In this document: piece by piece, positions 3,197 through 64,000 of the stretch
Numbering within the stretch: position 1 is the stretch's first letter
How the letters are laid out: each line of letters begins with the position of its first letter
Origin: Betaproteobacteria bacterium
Lineage (GTDB): Bacteria; Pseudomonadota; Gammaproteobacteria; Burkholderiales; Burkholderiaceae_D
Assembly: GCA_025362735.1 (NCBI GenBank)
Contig: JANYFL010000005.1
Location: 62,001-126,000, forward strand
DNA length: 64,000 nt
Direction: 5' to 3'
The notes under the pieces: generated by a model
The model's database searches: none
What the model saw: the letters and a program-made list of their open reading frames with translations, nothing else
Told to the model about the DNA's origin: nothing
Made by a program: the position numbers and the translations under genes

Positions 3197-4693
3197 ATGT
3201 CAGTAGCGGATAACAATGGAGTGACCGAGGTCTATAACGACAAGGTGGTCGCGCAATTTGCGGTCATGACTGTCGTCTGGGGCATCGTCGGCATGCTGGT
3301 CGGCGTCATCATCGCCGCCGAACTGGTATGGCCAGAATTGACCAGTGGCATTCCCTGGCTTTCTTACGGCCGACTTCGGCCGCTCCACACCAACGCGGTC
3401 ATTTTTGCGTTCGGCGGCTGCGCCCTGTTTTCTACGAGCTACTACGTCGTCCAGCGCACCTGTCAGGTCCGGCTCGCTTTCACCAAACTTGCGGCCTTTA
3501 CCTTTTGGGGCTGGCAGGCCGTCATCGTTCTCGCCGCCATCACGCTCCCGCTCGGCTTCACCAGCGGCAAAGAGTACGCCGAACTCGAATGGCCCATCGA
3601 CATTCTGATCACGATAGTCTGGGTCAGCTATGCCATCGTGTTTTTCGGCACGCTGGCACGCCGCCGTATTTCGCATATCTATGTCGCCAACTGGTTTTTT
3701 GGTGCTTTCATCCTCACCGTCGCATTGCTGCATGTCGTCAACAGCGCCGAGATGCCCGTGAGTTTCTGGCCGATGAAATCCTATTCTGCTTATGCCGGTG
3801 TGCAGGATGCGATGGTGCAATGGTGGTACGGCCACAACGCCGTGGGCTTCTTTTTGACCGCAGGCTTTCTCGGCATCATGTATTACTTTGTGCCCAAACA
3901 AGCGGGCCGCCCGATTTATTCGTACCGACTTTCTGTGGTGCATTTCTGGGCACTGATCTTCACCTACATGTGGGCAGGTCCGCATCACCTGCACTACACC
4001 GCACTGCCCGACTGGACGCAATCGCTGGGCATGGTGTTCTCGCTGATTCTGCTGGCGCCGTCCTGGGGCGGCATGATCAACGGCATGATGACCTTGTCGG
4101 GCGCCTGGCACAAACTGCGTGACGACCCCATCCTGAAATTTCTGATCGTCTCGCTGTCCTTCTACGGCATGAGTACCTTTGAAGGTCCGATGATGTCGAT
4201 CAAGACCGTCAATGCGCTGTCGCACTACACCGACTGGACCATTGGTCATGTGCATTCGGGGGCGCTCGGATGGGTTGGCCTGATTTCAATCGGCGCGCTG
4301 TACTACATGATTCCGCGCATGGTCGGACGTACCAAGATGCACAGCATTGCCGCAATCAACTTGCATTTCTGGGTGGCCACCATTGGCATCGTTCTCTATA
4401 TCGCCGCCCTCTGGATCGCTGGTGTCATGCAAGGTTTGATGTGGCGTGCGGTCGATAGCGATGGCCTGTTGACCTATACCTTCGTTGAAGCCACCAAAGC
4501 CAGTGCACCTTATTACATGATTCGTCTGTTTGGCGGTGTGCTGTATCTGAGCGGCATGCTGATCATGGCCTGGAACGTCTGGATGACGCTGGCTTCGGGC
4601 AAGAGCGTGCTGGTATCGGTGCCGCCGGTCAAGATGCATGCCCAGACTGCAGTCCTCTCGCCATCACTTGCCACTACAGCACACCCAGTCTGA
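3197..4693 (+). CDS. ccoN: cbb3-type cytochrome c oxidase subunit I (CcoN)
   Basis: Catalytic subunit of the high-affinity cbb3 terminal oxidase, carrying low-spin heme b and the heme b3-CuB centre in the inner membrane. The 498 residues form about 12 membrane helices. Family marks include [15 protein letters not shown] near the N-terminus, [11 protein letters not shown] (a CuB histidine), [14 protein letters not shown] (the histidine pair of the binuclear centre) and the late [12 protein letters not shown] segment with heme ligands. The start ATG has GAGG seven bases upstream. ccoO follows after nine bases. Cytochrome c maturation factors for its partner subunits are encoded at 45359-52518. 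Confidence 0.97.
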
Positions 4694-4702
4694 GGAACTC
4701 AA

Positions 4703-5317
4703 ATGAAACTAACTCATGACCGCATCGAACGTCACAGCGGCCTCCTGATCCTCCTGGTCATCCTGACCGTTGCCATTGGTGGCCTGGTCGAGATCGTCCC
4801 ACTCTGGTTCCAGCGCTCAACCACACAACCCATTACAGGTCTCAAACCTTATACGGCCCTGCAACTGACTGGCCGCGACGTCTATATCCGCGAAGGTTGT
4901 TACGGCTGCCACTCGCAAATGATTCGTCCGTTGCGCGCTGAAGTCTCGCGCTACGGCCCTTATTCGGTTGCAGGCGAATTCGTTTACGACCATCCATTCC
5001 AATGGGGCAGCAAACGTACCGGCCCTGATCTGGCTCGTGTGGGGGGACGTTATTCAGATGACTGGCATCGCATCCATTTGAACAACCCACGCGATGTCGT
5101 TCCGGAATCGATCATGCCTTCTTACCCCTGGCTGACCAAGACCACCCTCACTGGCGATGACGTTGCCAACAAGATGCGCGCTCTGCAAAGACTTGGGGTG
5201 CCTTATACGGAGCAGGACATTGCACAAGGCAAGGAAGCAATCCAGGGAAAAACTGAACAGGATGCCCTGATCGCCTATATGCAGAACCTTGGGGTGTTGC
5301 TCAAGAAAACGAACTGA
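4703..5317 (+). CDS. ccoO: cbb3-type cytochrome c oxidase subunit II (CcoO, mono-heme)
   Basis: Membrane-anchored mono-heme cytochrome c of the cbb3 oxidase (204 residues). A single N-terminal helix ([23 protein letters not shown]) precedes the heme-binding [15 protein letters not shown] (CxxCH). The region around [11 protein letters not shown] provides the methionine heme ligand. The family signature [20 protein letters not shown] is intact. It passes electrons from CcoP to CcoN. Spacing to ccoN (nine bases) and ccoQ (57 bases) supports a single transcript. Confidence 0.97.
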
Positions 5318-5374: not shown

Positions 5375-5554
5375 ATGGACATCACTTTATTGCGCATCAT
5401 CATCACGGTACTCAGTTTCATCATGTTCATTTCAATCTGGGCATGGGCATACAGCAAGCACAATCACGACCGCCTGGAGCAATACGGATCGCTGCCGCTC
5501 GTGGATGACGACGCGCTCAATTGCAATCTTCTCTCAGGGACAAGTCATGAGTGA
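5375..5554 (+). CDS. ccoQ: CcoQ/FixQ-type cbb3 oxidase subunit IV
   Basis: A 59-residue single-helix protein (MDITLLRIIITVLSFIMFIS...) of the size and position expected for CcoQ, between ccoO and ccoP. CcoQ stabilises the association of CcoP with the CcoNO core. The HDRLEQYGSLPLVDDD tail after the helix resembles other CcoQ proteins. Its last eight bases overlap the start of ccoP, indicating translational coupling. Confidence 0.85.
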   Translation: MDITLLRIIITVLSFIMFISIWAWAYSKHNHDRLEQYGSLPLVDDDALNCNLLSGTSHE

Positions 5555-6473
5555 CGCACTGAATTCATTCTGGGATTACTACGTCGCGATCATCAGTGTC
5601 GTTTCGATACTGGCCTGCGCCATTCTGCTCAAGTCGCAAAGCAGGCGCCGCGTCGTCGGTGCCAAAATCGAGAATACCGGGCACGTTTGGGATGAGGACC
5701 TGACCGAGTTAAACAATCCACTGCCGCGCTGGTGGATGTGGCTGTTCTACATCACGATCGTGTTCGGTTTGGCTTATCTGGTGCTGTTCCCGGGCACTGC
5801 CCTTTGGCAAGGTACGCTGGGCTGGACTTCAGCACGTCAACTCAAAGCCGAGAACGAAACTGCCGAACAGCAATACGCGCCGTTGTATGCAGAATTTGCC
5901 AGCAAAAACATCAAACTTCTTGCTGAAAATCCGCGTGCGATGGCAATGGGGCAACGCCTGTTTCTGAACAATTGCGCTCAGTGCCATGGCTCGGATGCAC
6001 GCGGCTCCAAGGGGTTCCCCAACCTGACCGACAAGGACTGGTTGCATGGTGGACTACCGGAAAATATCGAGCTATCGATTCTGGATGGTCGGCATGGTCA
6101 GATGCCGCCGATGGCAGCCGCAATCGGTTCGGATGAAGAGGTCCGCAACCTGGCGAACTATGTCGCTTCACTTTCCCATGGTGGACATGACCCACTACGG
6201 GCCGCGCTCGGCAAGAGCAAGTTCATGGTCTGTGCTGCTTGTCACGGTGCTGATGGCGTCGGCAACCCCATGCTGGGCGCACCGATCCTGAACGACAGTA
6301 CATGGCTCTATGGTGGTGATGTGGAAACCATCATCGAGACCATCAACAAAGGTCGTGAAGGGGTGATGCCAGCCCATCGCAATTTGCTCGGCACCGACAA
6401 GGTTCACATCCTGGCTGCTTATGTCTGGAGCCTGTCCAATCCGCGCAGCATGATTGATACCAGTGCGCGCTAA
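5547..6473 (+). CDS. ccoP: cbb3-type cytochrome c oxidase subunit III (CcoP, di-heme)
   Basis: Di-heme cytochrome c subunit of the cbb3 oxidase, which accepts electrons from soluble cytochromes. From ATG 5547 it has 308 residues: an N-terminal segment with membrane helices (YYVAIISVVSILACAILL and WWMWLFYITIVFGLAYLVLF) and two periplasmic cytochrome c domains with NCAQCHG and CAACHG. An in-frame start further upstream (5505) lies inside ccoQ. I chose 5547 because AGGGA precedes it and MSDALNSFWDYYV is the usual CcoP beginning. Confidence 0.96.
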   Translation: MSDALNSFWDYYVAIISVVSILACAILLKSQSRRRVVGAKIENTGHVWDEDLTELNNPLPRWWMWLFYITIVFGLAYLVLFPGTALWQGTLGWTSARQLKAENETAEQQYAPLYAEFASKNIKLLAENPRAMAMGQRLFLNNCAQCHGSDARGSKGFPNLTDKDWLHGGLPENIELSILDGRHGQMPPMAAAIGSDEEVRNLANYVASLSHGGHDPLRAALGKSKFMVCAACHGADGVGNPMLGAPILNDSTWLYGGDVETIIETINKGREGVMPAHRNLLGTDKVHILAAYVWSLSNPRSMIDTSAR

Positions 6474-55942: not shown

Positions 55943-56044
55943 GCGGCAATGGTAGGGGGCGCATCAAAGTGCGTCAAGCGAGTGTGTAGGTCTTGACTAC
56001 AAAGTTTGACGCCGCGCAACATCCGGGCGTACCATTCGCCCGCT

Positions 56045-56252
56045 TGGTGCCCGCGCAGATGTCCATTCAGCGCAGTTAAACGGGAAACAGGATGGTTCAT
56101 TGCACTGCAATCAACCTAACCTGTGCTGCCCCCGCAACGGTAAGCAGGAGTGTCGACGATGTTGGCCGACACACGCTTCCTCAATGCCACTGTGTTCGTT
56201 ATGAACATGGGAAGGTGATGAAGTGATCCTGCCAGCCCGGATACCGGCCAGG
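56045..56252 (+). promoter_or_regulatory. Cobalamin riboswitch upstream of btuB
   Basis: The region carries the conserved blocks of the adenosylcobalamin riboswitch in order: TGGTGCCCGCGC, CAGTTAAACGGGAAACAGG, CCTGTGCTGCCCCCGCAACG with GTAAGC, then CAATGCCACTG, GGGAAGGTG and GCCAGCCCGGATACCGGCC. It ends about 170 bases before the btuB start. Cobalamin binding should shut off the outer-membrane receptor gene. Confidence 0.95.
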
Positions 56253-56421
56253 CAATGTCGGGAACGCTGCGGGGACGCTGCGCACCGGATTGCCGCTGTC
56301 ACGCCTGTTCTTGTGCTTGTTGCTCTCTGTGTGTTGCTGATCCATGCCGGTATCGATTCGATACGGGCCGCGTTCCTTTTTTCAGCCAAACCTCGCGGGG
56401 ATGCGGGGATCAGGAACCATC

Positions 56422-58305
56422 ATGCAATCGAAAACGATCCATTTCAAAAAATCAAACTTCATTTTTCCGGCCATTGTGGCCTTGTGTAACCCGGCTTCGG
56501 CCTTGGCCGATTCAACTACATTGGCGAGCAGCCAAACCATGGGATCCTTGGTCGTGACAGCGTCACGCACACCTCAGAAGTTGGTCGATGCCCTGCCCAG
56601 TACGACCATCATCAGCCGAACAGACATTGAAAACAGTCAGGCGCAGGATGTTCTATCCTTGCTGCGCCGTCAGGTCGGTATCGAGTTTGCTCAAACCGGT
56701 GGACTCGGCGCTCAGGCTTCGGTCTTTATGCGTGGCGCGAATTCCAGCCAGGTACTGGTCATGATCGATGGCCAGCGGATTAATTCCGTGGGTTCAGGCG
56801 CGCCTTTGCTGTCACAACTCATGGTCGACGAAATCGATCATGTCGAAATTGTACGTGGCAATGTGTCCAGTCTTTACGGCTCGGAAGCCATTGGCGGGGT
56901 CATACAAATCTTTACACGACGTGCCGAAGCTGGGCCCGTTGGTGAAGTTAGTCTCCAATATGGCAGCGAACAAAACCGCGCCTTGTCGGCGCATGTCGGT
57001 ACGACCTTCGGTGAAGAAGGCAGCAAAACCCGTTTGAATTTGACAGCATCAACGCGTTCATTCGACGGTTTTTCTGCAATTGATCCCAAACGTGCATCCG
57101 GTGCTAATCCTGATAATGATGGTTATCACAATCACTCGATTTCTTTTCAGGCCTCGCAGCAAATTGGTCAACAGGAAGTAGGCGTGCGAGGCCTTCAGAG
57201 TGAAGGTAAACTCGACTTCGACAGTTCATTCGACGGGCCCACAGCCACCCATCGTGAAAACAGCCGCTTCACGACCGCCAGCGTGTATGCCAATCTGCAG
57301 CTTACGCCAGTGTGGGACAGCCAGTTTCAATATGGTGAAACCAAGGATCACAGCCACAGTACTTCTTCTTATCCTTTCTCGTTTGTAACCGGCACGACAG
57401 ACAACAAGAGCGCGCAATTCTCATGGCACAACAGTTATCACCTGGCACCGACACAGACACTGACGGCTGGTTATGAGAATCTGGATCAGAGGGGCAGTTC
57501 AACTGCCTACAGTGCCGAGTTTAAACGCACGGTTGATAGTCTGATGGCGGGTTATGTCGGGGACTATTCTGCGCAACAAGTGCAAATCAATTTCCGCCAT
57601 GATGACTATTCCGATTTTGGCGATGTCGATTCCGGGCTGGTCGCTTATGGTTACAATTTTGGTGCAGGCTGGAAAGCGATTGGTCAAGTCTCCACAGCCT
57701 TCCGCGCGCCCAGTTTCAACGATCTGTATTACCCGTTTTTCGGTAATCCAAAATTGAAGCCGGAACATTCGCGCAGCGCGGAGCTGGGTCTGCAATATGC
57801 GAAGGGACACGATTTTTTCCGTGCCTCGCTGTTCCGTACCCGTACGCGTGATCTGATCGTCTATGACTCGACGATCTTTGCCGCCAACAATATCGCTCGC
57901 GCTCGTTCGACCGGTCTGGAACTATCGGGCAGCACCGTCTGGGAGGATTGGGAATTGTCAGCCAATCTGACCATGCCACGACCGATTGACGAACAGACCC
58001 AGCAGCCATTGTTGCGTCGTGCGCATCGTAATTTCAACCTAGCGGTTGCACGAAACTTTGGCTCGTGGCGCGTCAGTGCGGACGTTCAGGATGCCGGTGC
58101 GCGTTACGATTCGGATATCAACACTTTTGCACGCATCCAGTTGAAAAGCTATAGCGTGACCAATCTGGGTCTGCGCTACACCTTCAATCCGAATATGAGT
58201 GCTGGGCTTGCTTTGACCAACGCGTTCGACAAAAACTACAACCTGGTTGATGGCTACAACACGCAGGGGCGGGCACTCAATTGCACTTTGGTTGTGAAGT
58301 TTTAG
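56422..58305 (+). CDS. btuB: TonB-dependent vitamin B12 receptor BtuB
   Basis: Outer-membrane cobalamin receptor, 627 residues. It has a signal peptide (FIFPAIVALCNPASALA), a TonB box region before GSLVVTASRTPQKLVD, the plug domain (DALPSTTIISRTDI, NSSQVLVMIDGQRINS, VRGNVSSLYGSEAIGGVIQI) and a 22-strand barrel ending in a C-terminal phenylalanine (TLVVKF). The frame is open from 56344, but the ATG at 56422 has CAGGA upstream and starts a proper signal peptide. The riboswitch and following btuC-btuD fix its role. Confidence 0.95.
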   Translation: MQSKTIHFKKSNFIFPAIVALCNPASALADSTTLASSQTMGSLVVTASRTPQKLVDALPSTTIISRTDIENSQAQDVLSLLRRQVGIEFAQTGGLGAQASVFMRGANSSQVLVMIDGQRINSVGSGAPLLSQLMVDEIDHVEIVRGNVSSLYGSEAIGGVIQIFTRRAEAGPVGEVSLQYGSEQNRALSAHVGTTFGEEGSKTRLNLTASTRSFDGFSAIDPKRASGANPDNDGYHNHSISFQASQQIGQQEVGVRGLQSEGKLDFDSSFDGPTATHRENSRFTTASVYANLQLTPVWDSQFQYGETKDHSHSTSSYPFSFVTGTTDNKSAQFSWHNSYHLAPTQTLTAGYENLDQRGSSTAYSAEFKRTVDSLMAGYVGDYSAQQVQINFRHDDYSDFGDVDSGLVAYGYNFGAGWKAIGQVSTAFRAPSFNDLYYPFFGNPKLKPEHSRSAELGLQYAKGHDFFRASLFRTRTRDLIVYDSTIFAANNIARARSTGLELSGSTVWEDWELSANLTMPRPIDEQTQQPLLRRAHRNFNLAVARNFGSWRVSADVQDAGARYDSDINTFARIQLKSYSVTNLGLRYTFNPNMSAGLALTNAFDKNYNLVDGYNTQGRALNCTLVVKF

Positions 58306-58314
58306 GGTCTGTTC

Positions 58315-59295
58315 ATGAAACGTGCACTGGCGATCTGGCTAATCCTGGCGATTCTCGCCATGCTAGTCGTCGCCTTTGCGCTTTCAATCGGTAGCGCCAG
58401 TCAAGGATGGAATCAGAGTTGGTCAGCCCTGTTTGATACTCAGCATCCCGCGCATGAAGTGATGATCAAGTTGCGCCTGCCGCGTATTGCTGCAGGTTTC
58501 GCTGTGGGTGCGATGCTTGCCGTGGCTGGAGCCTTGTTACAGGTTCTGTTGCGCAACCCACTCGCCGAGCCTTACGTATTGGGCTTGTCGGGCGGCGCAG
58601 CGATGGGTGCTCTAGGGGCGATTGCGTTGGCGCTACCGTCCCTGATGATCAGTGCATCCGCAGCTTTGGGTGCTGGATTTTCACTCCTGCTTTTACTGCT
58701 GGTCGCGCAGCGCGAATTCTCTGCGACGGCATCGATTGCCGCGAGTGAACGTCTGCTGCTGACTGGCGTGATGCTGGCCGCAGTTTGGGGCGCACTGATT
58801 TCTTTATTGCTAAGCTTGTCTCCAGAAAAACAGCAAAGCATGCTGTTCTGGTTGATGGGCGATTTAAGTGCCGCGCTTTCGCCGGGACCGATCTGGATTG
58901 TGCTGGCGGTCATTCTCAGCGCTGCCATGTTTGATGCACCCCGATTGAATCTGCTGGCTCGCGGCGAACAGACTGCAGCCAATTTGGGTGTCCGGGTTGG
59001 TGCATTGAAGCTGCGTATTGTCATGCTCGCTGCGTTGGCAGCTGGTGCAGCGGTGTCGATTGCAGGGACGATTGGTTTTGTCGGCTTGGTTGTTCCGCAT
59101 TTGTTGCGATTAATCTGGCGCAATGATCAGCGCGTGCTGCTACCGGCTTGCGCACTAGCAGGGGGAACGGTCGTCGTGCTGGCCGATACCCTGGCCCGTA
59201 CCTTGATCGCACCGCGCCAGTTGCCGGTTGGTGCCATCATGGCCGTGCTGGGTGCGCCCATCTTCCTGTACCTGCTTTGGCGGCGGGCGAAATGA
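58315..59295 (+). CDS. btuC: Vitamin B12 ABC transporter permease BtuC
   Basis: FecCD-family inner-membrane permease, 326 residues and about ten helices. Characteristic segments are VMIKLRLPRIAAGFAVGAML, LAVAGALLQVLLRNPLAEPY, the PYVLGLSGGAAMGA motif and IGFVGLVVPHLLRLIW near the C-terminus. It begins nine bases after btuB. No periplasmic binding protein (BtuF) is in the window. The B12 assignment rests on the riboswitch and on btuB. Confidence 0.93.
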   Translation: MKRALAIWLILAILAMLVVAFALSIGSASQGWNQSWSALFDTQHPAHEVMIKLRLPRIAAGFAVGAMLAVAGALLQVLLRNPLAEPYVLGLSGGAAMGALGAIALALPSLMISASAALGAGFSLLLLLLVAQREFSATASIAASERLLLTGVMLAAVWGALISLLLSLSPEKQQSMLFWLMGDLSAALSPGPIWIVLAVILSAAMFDAPRLNLLARGEQTAANLGVRVGALKLRIVMLAALAAGAAVSIAGTIGFVGLVVPHLLRLIWRNDQRVLLPACALAGGTVVVLADTLARTLIAPRQLPVGAIMAVLGAPIFLYLLWRRAK

Positions 59296-60092
59296 ACATT
59301 CATTCAGTACGTCTCGAGAGCCGGGATTTGCATCTCGAAGTCGGTTCGCGTGTGTTGGTGGAACAGCTCAATTTTTCTGTCGAACCCGATCAGTTCTGGT
59401 GCGTGCTCGGACGAAATGGCTGCGGCAAAACAACGTTGTTACAAGCCCTGGCCGGTTTGCGAAAACCTGAATCAGGCCAGGTCATGCTGAATCAACGTGC
59501 GCTGTCATCCTGGAACTGGCGTCAACTGGCGCAAACGCGCGCCTTGCTCCCGCAAAAGATTGTCGACGTGTTTTCATCAACGGTGCTGGAATCGGTGATG
59601 ACCGGACGTTTTCCGCATCAACAGTCCGGCTGGCATCGGCGCTTTGGTTTCGACGATGCGGATGACCGCGCGATTGCGCTCAGCTGTCTCGAAGAAGCCG
59701 GGATACTCGAATTGGCCGGACGTGACATCTTGTCGCTTTCAGGCGGTGAACGTCAGCGTGTTGCCATCGCTACTTTATTGGCGCAACAACCCAGGCTGGC
59801 TCTGCTCGACGAACCGGTCGCCCATCTCGACCTCGACGTGCAGCTCATCGTCATGAATGCACTCCAACGCAGGCTATCTCAACATCGGGATTCGTTTAGC
59901 GTTTTGCTCACCCTGCATGACGTCAATCTGGCCCAGCGCTACGCGACGCATGTGCTGCTTTTCATGGGCAATGGCAACGTACTGACCGGTGAAAAAACCG
60001 AAGTTTTGACCGCTGAAAATCTCTCTCTCGCCTTCAATCATCCCGTCCGGAAAATCAGTTCCGCGCATGAATTCTGGTTTGCTGCGGTTTGA
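59292..60092 (+). CDS. btuD: Vitamin B12 ABC transporter ATP-binding protein BtuD
   Basis: ATPase of the B12 importer, 266 residues. Walker A (GRNGCGKTTLLQALAG), the signature LSGGERQRVAIA, Walker B (LALLDEPVAHLD) and the switch histidine (LTLHDVNLAQRYA) are intact. The ATG overlaps the btuC stop by four bases. The longer frame from 59148 is inside btuC and is rejected. Confidence 0.94.
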   Translation: MNIHSVRLESRDLHLEVGSRVLVEQLNFSVEPDQFWCVLGRNGCGKTTLLQALAGLRKPESGQVMLNQRALSSWNWRQLAQTRALLPQKIVDVFSSTVLESVMTGRFPHQQSGWHRRFGFDDADDRAIALSCLEEAGILELAGRDILSLSGGERQRVAIATLLAQQPRLALLDEPVAHLDLDVQLIVMNALQRRLSQHRDSFSVLLTLHDVNLAQRYATHVLLFMGNGNVLTGEKTEVLTAENLSLAFNHPVRKISSAHEFWFAAV

Positions 60093-60315
60093 GAGAGAAA
60101 AAGCGAAAATTAACGCACAGTTGTGCTTATTCCGGATTTAGCGTATAAAGCGCTCTGCAAGATTCTCAAGTCAAGATTTTCAGGTCGTTAGTCATCGTCT
60201 GTGTAGTACGGTACTTCGCTTAGTCAATTCCTTCCCTTGATGGTCCTGCTTTACGACGCAGTAGGCGTAACAATTCGTCGAGCCGTCATCATTATTAATT
60301 TTTAAGGAAAGTAAC

Positions 60316-60519
60316 ATGGCAACAGGTACCGTTAAGTGGTTCAATGACTCCAAAGGCTTCGGCTTTATTTCTCCTGACGAAGGCGGCGACGATTTGTTCG
60401 CACACTTCTCGGCGATTCAGGGCAATGGCTTCAAGACTCTGCAAGAGAATCAAAAAGTTTCGTTCGACGTCACCAAAGGCCCAAAAGGTCTGCAGGCTTC
60501 GAACATCAAGCCCGTCTAA
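60316..60519 (+). CDS. Cold-shock protein (CspA family)
   Basis: A 67-residue single cold-shock domain binding single-stranded RNA and DNA. The RNP1 motif [11 protein letters not shown] and RNP2 motif DLFAHFSAI are intact. The start has AAGGAAAGT upstream. The 223 bases between btuD and this gene have no other feature and probably include a long 5' leader, as is common for csp genes. The strong terminator at 60544 follows directly. Confidence 0.96.
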
Positions 60520-60543
60520 ATCAGACTGCTTGAACTGAACTAG

Positions 60544-60570
60544 AAAGCGCGCAGCAATGCGCGCTTTTTT
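60544..60570 (+). terminator. Rho-independent terminator of the cold-shock gene
   Basis: AAAGCGCGCA-GCAA-TGCGCGCTTT forms a perfect ten-base-pair stem with a GCAA loop, followed by T residues. It ends the csp transcript before the ParA gene. Confidence 0.94.
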
Positions 60571-60689
60571 CATTGGCAAATTGGTGAGGGGGTTCAATAT
60601 TTTTGATCAGACAATTTTCCTGATCATCAATCCTGTTGAACTTCGTCTCACGACAAAAATAAAAATTCAAAACCGATCCAAGAGGAATC

Positions 60690-61313
60690 ATGCCGGTAAT
60701 TCTCGTCGCCAATCCTAAAGGTGGAGTTGGCAAAAGCACACTGTCTACAAACCTGGCGGGTTATTTCGCGCGGCAGGGATTGCAAACCATGCTCGGTGAC
60801 ACCGACAAGCAGCAATCGTCGCGCACCTGGCTGAATCTGCGTCCAGCCACATTACCCAAAATCAATACCTGGGGCACAGAAGACAATGGCATGGTTCGTC
60901 CACCTAAAGGCGTTACCCATATCGTGCTCGATACGCCTGCGGGTCTGGGTGAGGATCAGCTGAAAGATCTTCTCAAGATCACGGACAAGATTATTGTCCC
61001 GCTGCAACCCTCCATGTTCGACATTCTCGCGACGCGACATTTTCTTGAGGAGCTGGCAAAACACAAATCCGTGCGTGAAGGTCGCGTCAGTGTTGGCGTG
61101 GTCGGAATGCGCGTTGACGCGCGCACCCATGCTGCTGAGCAGCTGCAACGCTTCGTCGAAACGCTTGGATTGCCAGTGCTGGGTTATCTGCGCGATACCC
61201 AGAACTATGTTCAGCTTGCCGCGCACAGTCTGACGTTGTGGGATGTTGCGCCATCGCGGGTTGAGAAGGATTTAACCCAGTGGGAAACGTTGTTGAATTG
61301 GGTCAGAAAGTGA
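60690..61313 (+). CDS. ParA/MinD-family ATPase (orphan)
   Basis: A 207-residue Walker-type ATPase. The deviant Walker A motif NPKGGVGKSTLSTNLAGYFA begins near residue 8, and GDTDKQQSS and VLDTPAGLG carry the following acidic motifs. There is no parB or DNA-binding gene next to it, so it is not a standard partition operon. Orphan ParA proteins place other cargo such as chemoreceptors, carboxysomes or conjugation factors; the cargo here is unknown. It starts MPVILVANPKG after AAGAGGAATC. Confidence 0.9.
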   Translation: MPVILVANPKGGVGKSTLSTNLAGYFARQGLQTMLGDTDKQQSSRTWLNLRPATLPKINTWGTEDNGMVRPPKGVTHIVLDTPAGLGEDQLKDLLKITDKIIVPLQPSMFDILATRHFLEELAKHKSVREGRVSVGVVGMRVDARTHAAEQLQRFVETLGLPVLGYLRDTQNYVQLAAHSLTLWDVAPSRVEKDLTQWETLLNWVRK

Positions 61314-61340
61314 CTCCATCTGGTCAATCAATTACACGCC

Positions 61341-61775
61341 CTAATGTGGTGGCGCTTCGTTTATTTGTAGCCAAAACGTCCCGACTTGTTGAACCATTTC
61401 CCGATATTTTTCAAACTCGACCGGCTTGACCAAGTAAGCATTGGCGCCATACTCATAGCTTTCAATAACATCCCTATCCTCGCGAGAAGAAGTAAAAACA
61501 ACAACGGCAATGCGTCGCAGTAAGGGATCGGTCCGGATTTGCTTAAGGACTTCGATGCCGCCTATCTTTGGCATATTGAGATCCAATAAAATCAGGACGG
61601 GATTGCCTGATTTTCTCTCAGAAAAATGGCCTCGGCAATAAAGATAGTCGAGTGCTTGATCACCATCGCGCGCCACGTCAATTACATGGTTTTCACGATA
61701 TTGCGCTAAAGCCTTAGTCGCGAGATCGACGTCGAATTTGCTGTCATCGACGATCAGAATATTTTTCTGTCCCAT
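61341..61775 (-). CDS. Rcp1-like single-domain response regulator
   Basis: A 144-residue receiver domain without an output domain. The acidic pocket is at Asp10 and Asp11, the phosphorylated Asp at 65 (LLDLNMPK), Thr95 and Lys117 (LVKPVEFEKY). The form SYEYGANAYLVKPVEFEKY is typical of the Rcp1 class that partners bacteriophytochrome- and ethylene-type kinases. It begins ten bases after the kinase stop, so the two form an operon. The output is unknown, as Rcp1-type regulators usually act by protein contact. Confidence 0.92.
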   Translation of the reverse strand: MGQKNILIVDDSKFDVDLATKALAQYRENHVIDVARDGDQALDYLYCRGHFSERKSGNPVLILLDLNMPKIGGIEVLKQIRTDPLLRRIAVVVFTSSREDRDVIESYEYGANAYLVKPVEFEKYREMVQQVGTFWLQINEAPPH

Positions 61776-61785
61776 TTTCTTGGTC

Positions 61786-62958
61786 TTACGAGGCTATCTT
61801 GAGTGTAAAGAAAAATGAGGCGCCTTCTCCGAGCTTGCTCTCGGCCCATATGCGGCCCCCGTGCCGTTCTACAATCCGCTGGACCGTAACCAAACCAATA
61901 CCGGTTCCTTCGAATTCGTCCTCCCCGTGCAAACGCTGAAAAACACCAAACAATTTATTCTGGAATCTTGGGTCAAATCCTACGCCATTATCTTTTACGC
62001 TAATGACCACTTCGTCAACCTGCAAAAGTTGACAGTCAATCTGTATGACTGATGGTTTACGTCCCCGTGTAAATTTCACTGCATTCGACAGCAGATTCGT
62101 AAATACCACTTCCAATAGGGTTGGGTCACCCTGCACAGAAGCCAGCTTGCCAATCTCCCATTCAATAGGGCGTCCATCGGTCGCTTGCATGCAATCCAAA
62201 CGAGCGGCCTCCACGACCGCGGTCAGATCAACGGTCTCGCGACGCATATTCATGCGCCCGGTGCGCGAAAAAGCCAGCAGATCATCGACCAGACGCCCCA
62301 TTTTTGTGGTCGTTTCTATGATGCCATCAAGATAGCGCATCTCATCTTCGCTTAGATGTTTGGACTCATCCAAAAGTAACTTTGAATAACCCTGGATGTG
62401 GCGTACTGGAGCCCTTAAGTCGTGAGAAACGGAGTAACTGAAAGATTCAAGCTCCTTATTGGCGGCTTCGAGCTCAATCGTTCGTTTTTCCAGAGACTGA
62501 TTGATGATTTGAAGATTCTTTTCCACATCCCTGCGGCGTAACACTTCATTTTGCAATTCAATGTTTGCCAGACGAAGCTGGTCTGGGCTTGGGATCGCCA
62601 GTGCCTTGGGCACCAGTGGCCAAGCCATAATCGCTGTCAATAAGGACACAGCGGCCGTGAACACCTTGACGGCCGCTTCTTCCCAGTAGTGTGGGCTCCA
62701 TATATTCACGATTGAAAAAATATGCGTAGTGCCACATGCCATGACAAAAACGCCGAACATCACAAGCAGCCACTTGAATGGGAAATCTGGCCGCTTGGTC
62801 ACGAAGTACCACAGGGCGATTGGAATCGAAAAGTATGAAATTGCGATCAAGGCATCGGAAGCAACCTGTGTCCACAGCAAAGAGGGAATCCACAAATAAC
62901 AATGTCCATGTGGCAATAAACCATTGTCTGAGAAGAAATTGGTAAAGATGCTTAGCAT
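61786..62958 (-). CDS. Ethylene receptor-like histidine kinase
   Basis: A 390-residue membrane histidine kinase. Residues about 31-128 form three to four helices that match the ethylene-binding domain of plant ETR1 and of cyanobacterial Etr1: SDALIAISYFSIP, FPFKWLLVMFGVFVMACGTTH and KVFTAAVSLLTAIMAW. The ETR1 residues Asp25, Tyr32, Ile35, Pro36, Cys65 and His69 align without a gap to Asp35, Tyr42, Ile45, Pro46, Cys75 and His79. The copper ligands Cys and His are kept. A coiled coil follows, then HisKA (SYSVSHDLRAP, His179) and an ATP-binding domain with DNGVGF and GTGIGLV. There is no GAF domain. The start MLSIFTNFF is the only ATG that keeps the full domain. Confidence 0.85.
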   Translation of the reverse strand: MLSIFTNFFSDNGLLPHGHCYLWIPSLLWTQVASDALIAISYFSIPIALWYFVTKRPDFPFKWLLVMFGVFVMACGTTHIFSIVNIWSPHYWEEAAVKVFTAAVSLLTAIMAWPLVPKALAIPSPDQLRLANIELQNEVLRRRDVEKNLQIINQSLEKRTIELEAANKELESFSYSVSHDLRAPVRHIQGYSKLLLDESKHLSEDEMRYLDGIIETTTKMGRLVDDLLAFSRTGRMNMRRETVDLTAVVEAARLDCMQATDGRPIEWEIGKLASVQGDPTLLEVVFTNLLSNAVKFTRGRKPSVIQIDCQLLQVDEVVISVKDNGVGFDPRFQNKLFGVFQRLHGEDEFEGTGIGLVTVQRIVERHGGRIWAESKLGEGASFFFTLKIAS

Positions 62959-63377
62959 GTTGTTTTATCTCCCCTTTTAGCAATCCAATCCACTCGAACA
63001 TTAGTCGAGTATCCAGCATCCAGAATGGCAAATGACATCAAACAATATGCAGCTCAGACAAGATGTGAATTCAATTCAATGATAAAAGACAACACTCCCC
63101 AAGAACAGCGAATCCACGAGATAGGGTGATCATTGTTGTATGGATTGGGTTGGGCCAGACGTTTCAGGATGAATGAAAAGTACGTTTCGTCCGAGTTCTG
63201 GAACCAGAACGGCTTTTGGTGATGCTGAATGTTGATCGTCACCGTTTTGCAAGCAAATTGTCATACCTCCGTCATTTGGCCTGAATAACATGCCTCGCAT
63301 CTGCTAATGCTTTGGGCGAAGGGGCGCCGAGCGGGCAGATTCCTCCCCTTACATCCCAAAGATCATGGAGTAAATCA
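62959..63377. other. Intergenic region between the divergent kinase and PHP genes
   Basis: About 420 bases with no convincing gene. It should contain the promoters of the kinase operon (minus strand) and of the secreted PHP-domain protein (plus strand). Open frames seen here are short, lack ribosome-binding sites and resemble no known protein. No repeat or hairpin with a T-run was found. Confidence 0.6.
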
Positions 63378-64000
63378 ATGAAACTCGAATTCAGCAAGAG
63401 TCAGATTGCCCTCGCGGTGATCGCAACGTTGAGCGCCCTGGCTGCTGCGCCAACGGTGGCGACGGCAGACGGCAAAACAACGGGCAAATATGTTGCGGGT
63501 GATTTCCATAATCACACGACCTGCTCAGACGGTTCGATCTCGATGCAGAAACTGGTCAAGAAAGCAACCGACAAGAGTGATGGCACGTTTGGTCTGGACT
63601 GGTTTGTCCAAGCTGGTCACGGCGGTAACGGCAACCGCAACTGTACATTGGTTGAAGACGCCAGCCTTGCGACACCCGCTTATCCATTACGCACGGGTGC
63701 AACGCCATTCGACGTTCCTGCATCAGGCAATCCCTCGCCCTCACAATACACCGGCCCGAACACGACCTGGGCTCAAAGCATTGGCGTCAATAACGTCAAA
63801 GGCTCGGTCTCTGGCAGTGGGAACAGCAAGAACATGTGGCGCTGGCAGTCACTGCAGGAATTTCAGTATCCCCTGATGGAATACCTGTCGTCGTATCTCA
63901 ATCGTCCATTATTCCTCGGCACCGAGTCCGTGGTTGCTGGCCACGAACACGCATCGATGTCTGTCATTACCGGCCAGATGCCGATGGCACTCGATTCGGT
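63378..64000 (+). CDS. Secreted PHP-domain protein (3' end outside window)
   Basis: The frame is open from ATG 63378 (GGAG seven bases upstream) to the window end, so at least 207 residues are visible. A signal peptide (QIALAVIATLSALAAAPTVATA) is followed by GDFHNHTTCSDGS, the H-x-H...D metal motif of PHP phosphoesterases, then QAGHGG and GTESVVAGHEH, which could supply further metal ligands. It is therefore probably a periplasmic or exported metal-dependent phosphoesterase or related hydrolase. The substrate is unknown and the C-terminal part cannot be seen. Confidence 0.8.
   Translation, partial: MKLEFSKSQIALAVIATLSALAAAPTVATADGKTTGKYVAGDFHNHTTCSDGSISMQKLVKKATDKSDGTFGLDWFVQAGHGGNGNRNCTLVEDASLATPAYPLRTGATPFDVPASGNPSPSQYTGPNTTWAQSIGVNNVKGSVSGSGNSKNMWRWQSLQEFQYPLMEYLSSYLNRPLFLGTESVVAGHEHASMSVITGQMPMALDS

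Follow-up and report, generated by a model that had tools for sequence, protein, structure and literature searches.

A predicted ethylene-receptor two-component system in a Betaproteobacteria genome and its possible connection to c-di-GMP

Two adjacent genes in the 64,000-nucleotide stretch of DNA analysed here (the window, to which all unlabelled positions refer) probably encode a bacterial ethylene-receptor two-component system, a reading of the sequence that we hold at roughly three in four. The membrane domain of the kinase is certainly homologous to ethylene receptors, and ethylene is the likely ligand. The case for ethylene sensing rests on more than the plant receptor ETR1, because ethylene receptors have been demonstrated by experiment in two bacterial species, as AzoEtr1 and SynEtr1. 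The interest of the present genes lies mainly in the chance of tying ethylene to c-di-GMP, for which they suggest a direct route.

In the proposed mechanism, Asp35, Cys75, and His79 of the kinase would hold Cu(I), which would bind ethylene in the membrane. As has been suggested for AzoEtr1 and SynEtr1, the empty receptor would autophosphorylate, here on His179, and hand the phosphate on to the regulator at Asp65, and ethylene binding would turn the kinase down. Since the regulator has no output domain, it may act by binding another protein. The response might concern attachment or biofilm and c-di-GMP, and a second protein of the genome with the same membrane domain, a predicted diguanylate cyclase, might control c-di-GMP directly.

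The kinase and its predicted copper site

Sensor histidine kinase: The kinase gene (61786..62958, minus strand) encodes 390 amino acids, in which the ORF list and Pfam place an ethylene-binding-type membrane domain and a HisKA-HATPase_c core with no linker domain between them. An earlier note, made from the letters of the window and a list of its open reading frames, had given coordinates, strand, and lengths for this ORF and for that of the regulator, and all of these are reproduced in an ORF check. The membrane domain is ETR1_N (PF25487; residues 27-122, 62593..62880, minus strand) with an E-value of 7e-38 and 129.2 bits against a cut-off of 27, a match far beyond chance. In a profile check set beforehand the domain stays in the ethylene-receptor family, ETR1_N being the sole Pfam family found in the membrane part at E ≤ 0.01. 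At the same threshold no GAF, PAS, or further sensor domain is found in the kinase, in keeping with the earlier statement that it lacks the GAF domain of ETR1 and runs from the membrane domain straight to the kinase. The core comprises HisKA (residues 171-232, 62263..62448, minus strand) and HATPase_c (residues 277-388, 61795..62130, minus strand), and inspection of the sequence finds His179 and the N, G1, and G2 boxes all present; we take His179 to be the phospho-acceptor and the boxes to have their usual meaning. The note had also called the core phytochrome-type, which is loosely supported, as the best solved relative is the histidine kinase 8f71 at 142 bits and the bacteriophytochromes, at 98 bits, come behind several other kinases.

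Membrane domain: Three membrane helices are predicted for the kinase. An AlphaFold2 model on 12 aligned domains, evaluated by DSSP, has three long helices at residues 25-55, 62-87, and 91-112, with a mean pLDDT of 86.8 and block values of 82-96 over the helices. For this domain a profile search finds no solved relative at E ≤ 1, and a fold search of the PDB returns no match at E ≤ 0.001.

Binding residues: The reference in our alignments is the N-terminus of ETR1. Aligned to it, Asp25, Tyr32, Ile35, Pro36, Cys65, and His69 of ETR1 have identical counterparts in Asp35 (62854..62856, minus strand), Tyr42, Ile45, Pro46, Cys75, and His79 (Cys75 to His79, 62722..62736, minus strand), and the seventh binding position, Ile62, falls on Val72 (62743..62745, minus strand), so that six of the seven are identical. 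The constant offset of +10 that the note had read for all seven positions is thus recovered. Its description of the alignment as gapless is correct up to about ETR1 residue 85 (residue 95 of the kinase) and fails beyond, where three residues fewer precede the conserved lysine, Lys91 in ETR1 and Lys98 in the kinase (62665..62667, minus strand; offset +7 rather than +10); the exact position of the gap between ETR1 residue 85 and Lys91 differs between two alignments. The shortening is common to the Azospirillum protein and all 12 rows of the alignment used for the model, and is therefore a plant-bacterium difference and not damage. Asp25, Cys65, and His69 form the copper site of ETR1 (PMC12643061), Cys and His being its ligands, and seven residues of AtETR1 are needed for ethylene binding (PMC11819568). 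Across 103 bacterial domains, including that of the window, Asp25 is kept in 97, Tyr32 in 101, Ile35 in 96, Pro36 in 95, Ile62 in 96, Cys65 in 101, and His69 in 102. All seven occur together in 77 of these domains, and the Asp-Cys-His trio is complete in 94.

PHGxC..W motif: Ahead of helix 1, the kinase carries PHGHCYLW at residues 16-23 (62890..62913, minus strand), a motif marked by its conservation in bacterial domains. His17 and Gly18 are each present in 101 of the 103 domains, Cys20 in 100, and Trp23 in 101, a constancy close to that of Cys75 (101) and His79 (102). The motif extends to five cyanobacterial sequences and the Azospirillum one, and is not seen in a weak Deinococcus match to ETR1_N (76 bits). 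Where the window kinase has HGHC, plant ETR1 carries a CNC motif. The single cysteine of the cyanobacterial proteins has been noted and a disulfide suggested (PMC6682694); the histidine goes unmentioned where the accessible part of that paper treats the cysteine. The motif is a possible second metal contact or copper-loading site.

It is rather improbable, though not negligibly so, that the domain senses Cu(I) itself, or redox or another gas at the copper site, with ethylene not being its natural ligand. Such a sensor would fit the strong conservation of the copper residues Cys and His, which rank with the most constant positions of the domain, the second near-invariant His-Gly-x-Cys motif ahead of helix 1, and the further ethylene-independent roles for which PMC11819568 leaves room. 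On the other hand, AzoEtr1 binds ethylene with high affinity, and disruption of the receptor in Azospirillum or Synechocystis results in constitutive ethylene responses (PMC11819568). Moreover, the pair is flanked by a ParA-like ATPase and an ORF that matches no Pfam family, not by copper genes. The source genome has three copper P-type ATPases over the family cut-off, a presence that says little because the family occurs in 14 of 14 control genomes.

The response regulator and the setting of the gene pair

Response regulator: The second gene (61341..61775, minus strand) encodes a single-domain response regulator of 144 amino acids and of Rcp1/CheY type. It starts 10 nt after the kinase stop, downstream on the same strand, which is the spacing that had been noted. 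Pfam finds Response_reg at residues 6-128 and thus a receiver only, with Asp10, Asp11, Asp65, Thr95, and Lys117 intact in the sequence. We take these residues to have the roles known from other receivers, Asp65 being the phospho-acceptor. The earlier label "Rcp1-like" finds support in matches to RcpA (93.5 bits) and Rcp1 (92.9 bits), above which stand three other receiver entries at 144 (5ic5, named CheY), 128, and 99.6 bits.

Flanking DNA: No conserved third gene is seen beside the pair in the window. The next gene, on the opposite strand, is a ParA-like ATPase ORF (60690-61313, plus strand) that converges with the regulator gene at a distance of 27 nt and whose best NCBIfam model, ParA_partition, scores 107 bits, under its cut-off of 180. 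The ORF on the other flank has no Pfam match. Predicted promoters and terminators in 61200-63500 number 3 and 4 against 3.1 and 2.6 in shuffled sequences, and being so near the shuffles they offer nothing usable. Further off on the plus strand, an Rfam cspA thermoregulator match (60149-60572, 94 bits) covers a 67-aa cold-shock-like ORF at 60316-60519, and the stretch 56028-60092 holds a cobalamin riboswitch followed by ORFs named by eye as TonB-receptor-like, a BtuC-like permease, and an ABC ATPase. Elsewhere in the window, a copper-type P-type ATPase (TIGR01511, 422 bits) lies beside the cbb3 oxidase genes ccoN and ccoO and a FixP/CcoP-type cytochrome (438-2882, 3197-4693, 4703-5317, and 5505-6473, plus strand).

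Recurrence of the pair: The kinase-regulator pair recurs in another genome (G057, locus L065) among unrelated neighbours, with an exonuclease gene on one side and an IS transposase on the other. Among the four nearest relatives of the window in the EBD tree, which is built on few columns and leaves 50 of 101 inner branches unresolved, the regulator is found next to L065 only. It is absent from L144 despite sufficient room, none is seen at L147, and at L145 none appears before the contig ends 590 nt on; the regulator is thus not fixed to the subclade of the window. A wider view comes from 99 ETR1_N proteins with broad surroundings, namely the window, 5 loci, 3 plasmid loci, and 90 further loci, some of them near contig ends; ETR1_N matches under about 110 bits are excluded from this set (22 of 77 in the family, 4 of 29 in the order, and 7 of 27 in the phylum). 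A separate receiver ORF follows in at least 17 of the 99, a lower bound because the regulators of L071 and L072, the latter annotated, escaped the search. That the kinase signals to some other protein, the adjoining regulator not being its partner, is therefore favoured by the bare L144 of the same subclade and opposed by the ten-base spacing on one strand in the window and by these 17 or more receivers, and we regard it as unlikely.

Distribution, Val72, and a second predicted receptor of the genome

Distribution: ETR1_N matches at E ≤ 0.001 were counted in four overlapping genome samples, with the source genome included: the same family (66 of 392 genomes), the same order (27 of 399), the phylum (23 of 299), and relatives (15 of 60). 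Over the curated cut-off the genomes number 65, 25, 23, and 15, respectively, and there is no match in 14 control genomes. In a plasmid collection, 19 records match the membrane domain of the window, seven of them from Azospirillum, and a conjugative plasmid of Novosphingobium ES2-1 carries a kinase-regulator pair; a phage collection yields no match to the membrane domain. In the EBD tree, a 64-row branch holds both the Azospirillum protein and the window (support 92, short of the starred level). At L172, L173, and L174, a single chain carries ETR1_N and, after it, two kinase matches, and Ser replaces Pro36.

Val72: Valine stands at the Ile62 position in six of the 103 domains, namely L166 and five others (window, L065, L144, L145, and L147). 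These five group in a single branch of the EBD tree (support 88, short of the starred level) and keep all other binding residues, so that Val72 is the state of a kinase lineage and not a slip of one sequence. A degenerate receptor, in which Val72 abolishes ethylene binding and the kinase is constitutive or otherwise controlled, can point to the one replaced residue among seven and to weak family members that clearly lose binding residues (e.g., L035, L037, L058, and L060), yet it is very unlikely given the conservative change from Ile to Val, the six other sites intact, the residues kept throughout the Val72 branch, and a shortening before Lys98 that the Azospirillum protein and all 12 model rows share.

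Second ETR1_N protein: Besides the predicted ethylene-receptor kinase, the source genome encodes a second ETR1_N protein of 494 amino acids (G000:C7 6303-7787, minus strand; L001:382-1866, minus strand; L070), whose membrane domain is joined through PAS to GGDEF where the window kinase has its kinase core. The two are identical at 87 of 171 residues over the membrane domain and linker. All seven binding residues and Lys91 are present in alignment to ETR1, and the intact GGDEF motif and I-site make the protein a predicted diguanylate cyclase. It belongs to another branch of the EBD tree, with 28 rows, starred at 96, and without the window. GGDEF has 18 matches in the source genome. Downstream of the gene, on the same strand, an ORF resembles by eye the start of MutL. 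Two receptors in one genome are already on record for Geitlerinema, and a diguanylate-cyclase gene is grouped with GeiEtr2 (PMC6682694).

Association with GGDEF: Among the 99 proteins, 25 are tied to GGDEF, 13 by fusion to GGDEF or GGDEF-EAL and 12 through a following GGDEF-EAL ORF on the same strand within 1500 nt. In the downstream ORFs of L066, L128, and L138, Pfam finds a receiver ahead of GGDEF-EAL, and at L134 a GGDEF-EAL protein with two receiver stretches. At L067 and L166 an EAL ORF lies upstream, outside this count. On the EBD tree, whose columns are few and in which 50 of 101 inner branches lack resolution, fusion requires at least five changes and the linked state at least ten. GG(D/E)EF and the I-site are kept in 13 of 13 fusions. 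A copper residue is changed in five of the 13 (Asp25 to Asn in L180, L191, L193, and L196; Cys65 to Ser in L167), so perhaps not all of them bind copper and ethylene; the fused copy of the source genome keeps its copper residues.

Operon linkage to c-di-GMP genes was tried as statistical proof and rejected: GGDEF-EAL follows 12 of 86 unfused ETR1_N proteins, as against GGDEF or EAL after 4 of 40 control HisKA kinases (one-sided Fisher p 0.38). The control consists of 40 of the 41 HisKA matches listed for G033, G471, and G794, out of 128 matches in all, and thus favours high-scoring kinases; 2 of the 40 proteins had no kinase hit in our own search and were kept. It says nothing on fusion, because its members were chosen as kinases. 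For kinases with a separate receiver directly downstream, 7 of 17 are GGDEF-linked versus 4 of 40 in the control (p 0.011), in a subset picked after seeing the table and with interrelated members.

c-di-GMP: Ethylene lowers c-di-GMP in Azospirillum, where the pathway from receptor to response is stated to be unknown (PMC11819568), and this published fall adds weight to the c-di-GMP idea. No report of an ethylene-binding diguanylate cyclase was found in a literature search that took in the accessible parts of PMC11819568, PMC6682694, and PMC4686702, most subscription papers lying outside its reach. We tentatively propose, as plausible rather than probable, that ethylene is wired directly to c-di-GMP in the source genome and many related bacteria. 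A one-component receptor (ETR1_N-PAS-GGDEF, or ETR1_N with GGDEF-EAL) would make or break the messenger on gas binding, and the kinase-regulator pair would feed the same network, in some relatives via an adjacent receiver-GGDEF-EAL protein. If so, the c-di-GMP fall in ethylene-treated Azospirillum would be one case of a general logic. As the source genome encodes two compact predicted receptors that differ in output, one being a predicted diguanylate cyclase, the question can be put to one purified protein.

Comparison with known ethylene receptors

Plant ETR1: The ETR1 sequence shares the copper and binding residues with the window kinase at 37% identity over 125 aligned columns. In contrast, the window kinase has no GAF domain, has HGHC for CNC and three residues fewer before Lys91/98, and its regulator is separate.

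SynEtr1: Compared by description, SynEtr1 of Synechocystis PCC 6803 resembles the window kinase in having an ethylene-binding domain and a histidine kinase, and it signals by phosphotransfer (PMC11819568, PMC6682694). SynEtr1 is a light sensor as well and contains PAS and GAF domains (PMC11819568, PMC6682694), whereas the window kinase has neither domain. Its regulator slr1213 activates a small RNA (PMC11819568), and the window regulator differs in lacking an output domain. SynEtr1 is, beside AzoEtr1, the other experimentally proven bacterial receptor, and proteins of this sort are predicted for many bacteria (PMC11819568).

AzoEtr1: AzoEtr1 of Azospirillum brasilense consists of the membrane domain, PAS, and kinase, and binds 14C-ethylene with high affinity through its first 130 residues; a 135-aa regulator without an output domain is encoded directly downstream (PMC11819568). 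AzoEtr1 and AzoRRetr1 are like the window pair in ETR1_N, the histidine kinase, and the single-domain regulator directly downstream (PMC11819568), and the Azospirillum sequence also has the HGxC motif and the Asp, Cys, and His residues. The window regulator, used as a phmmer query, did not retrieve that of Azospirillum, and the two are thus not close. AzoEtr1 has a PAS domain and 525 amino acids (PMC11819568), whereas the window kinase lacks PAS and has 390. As the type of ETR1_N kinase with regulator is already described in AzoEtr1 and SynEtr1, the window pair belongs to a known type and is a shorter form than AzoEtr1.
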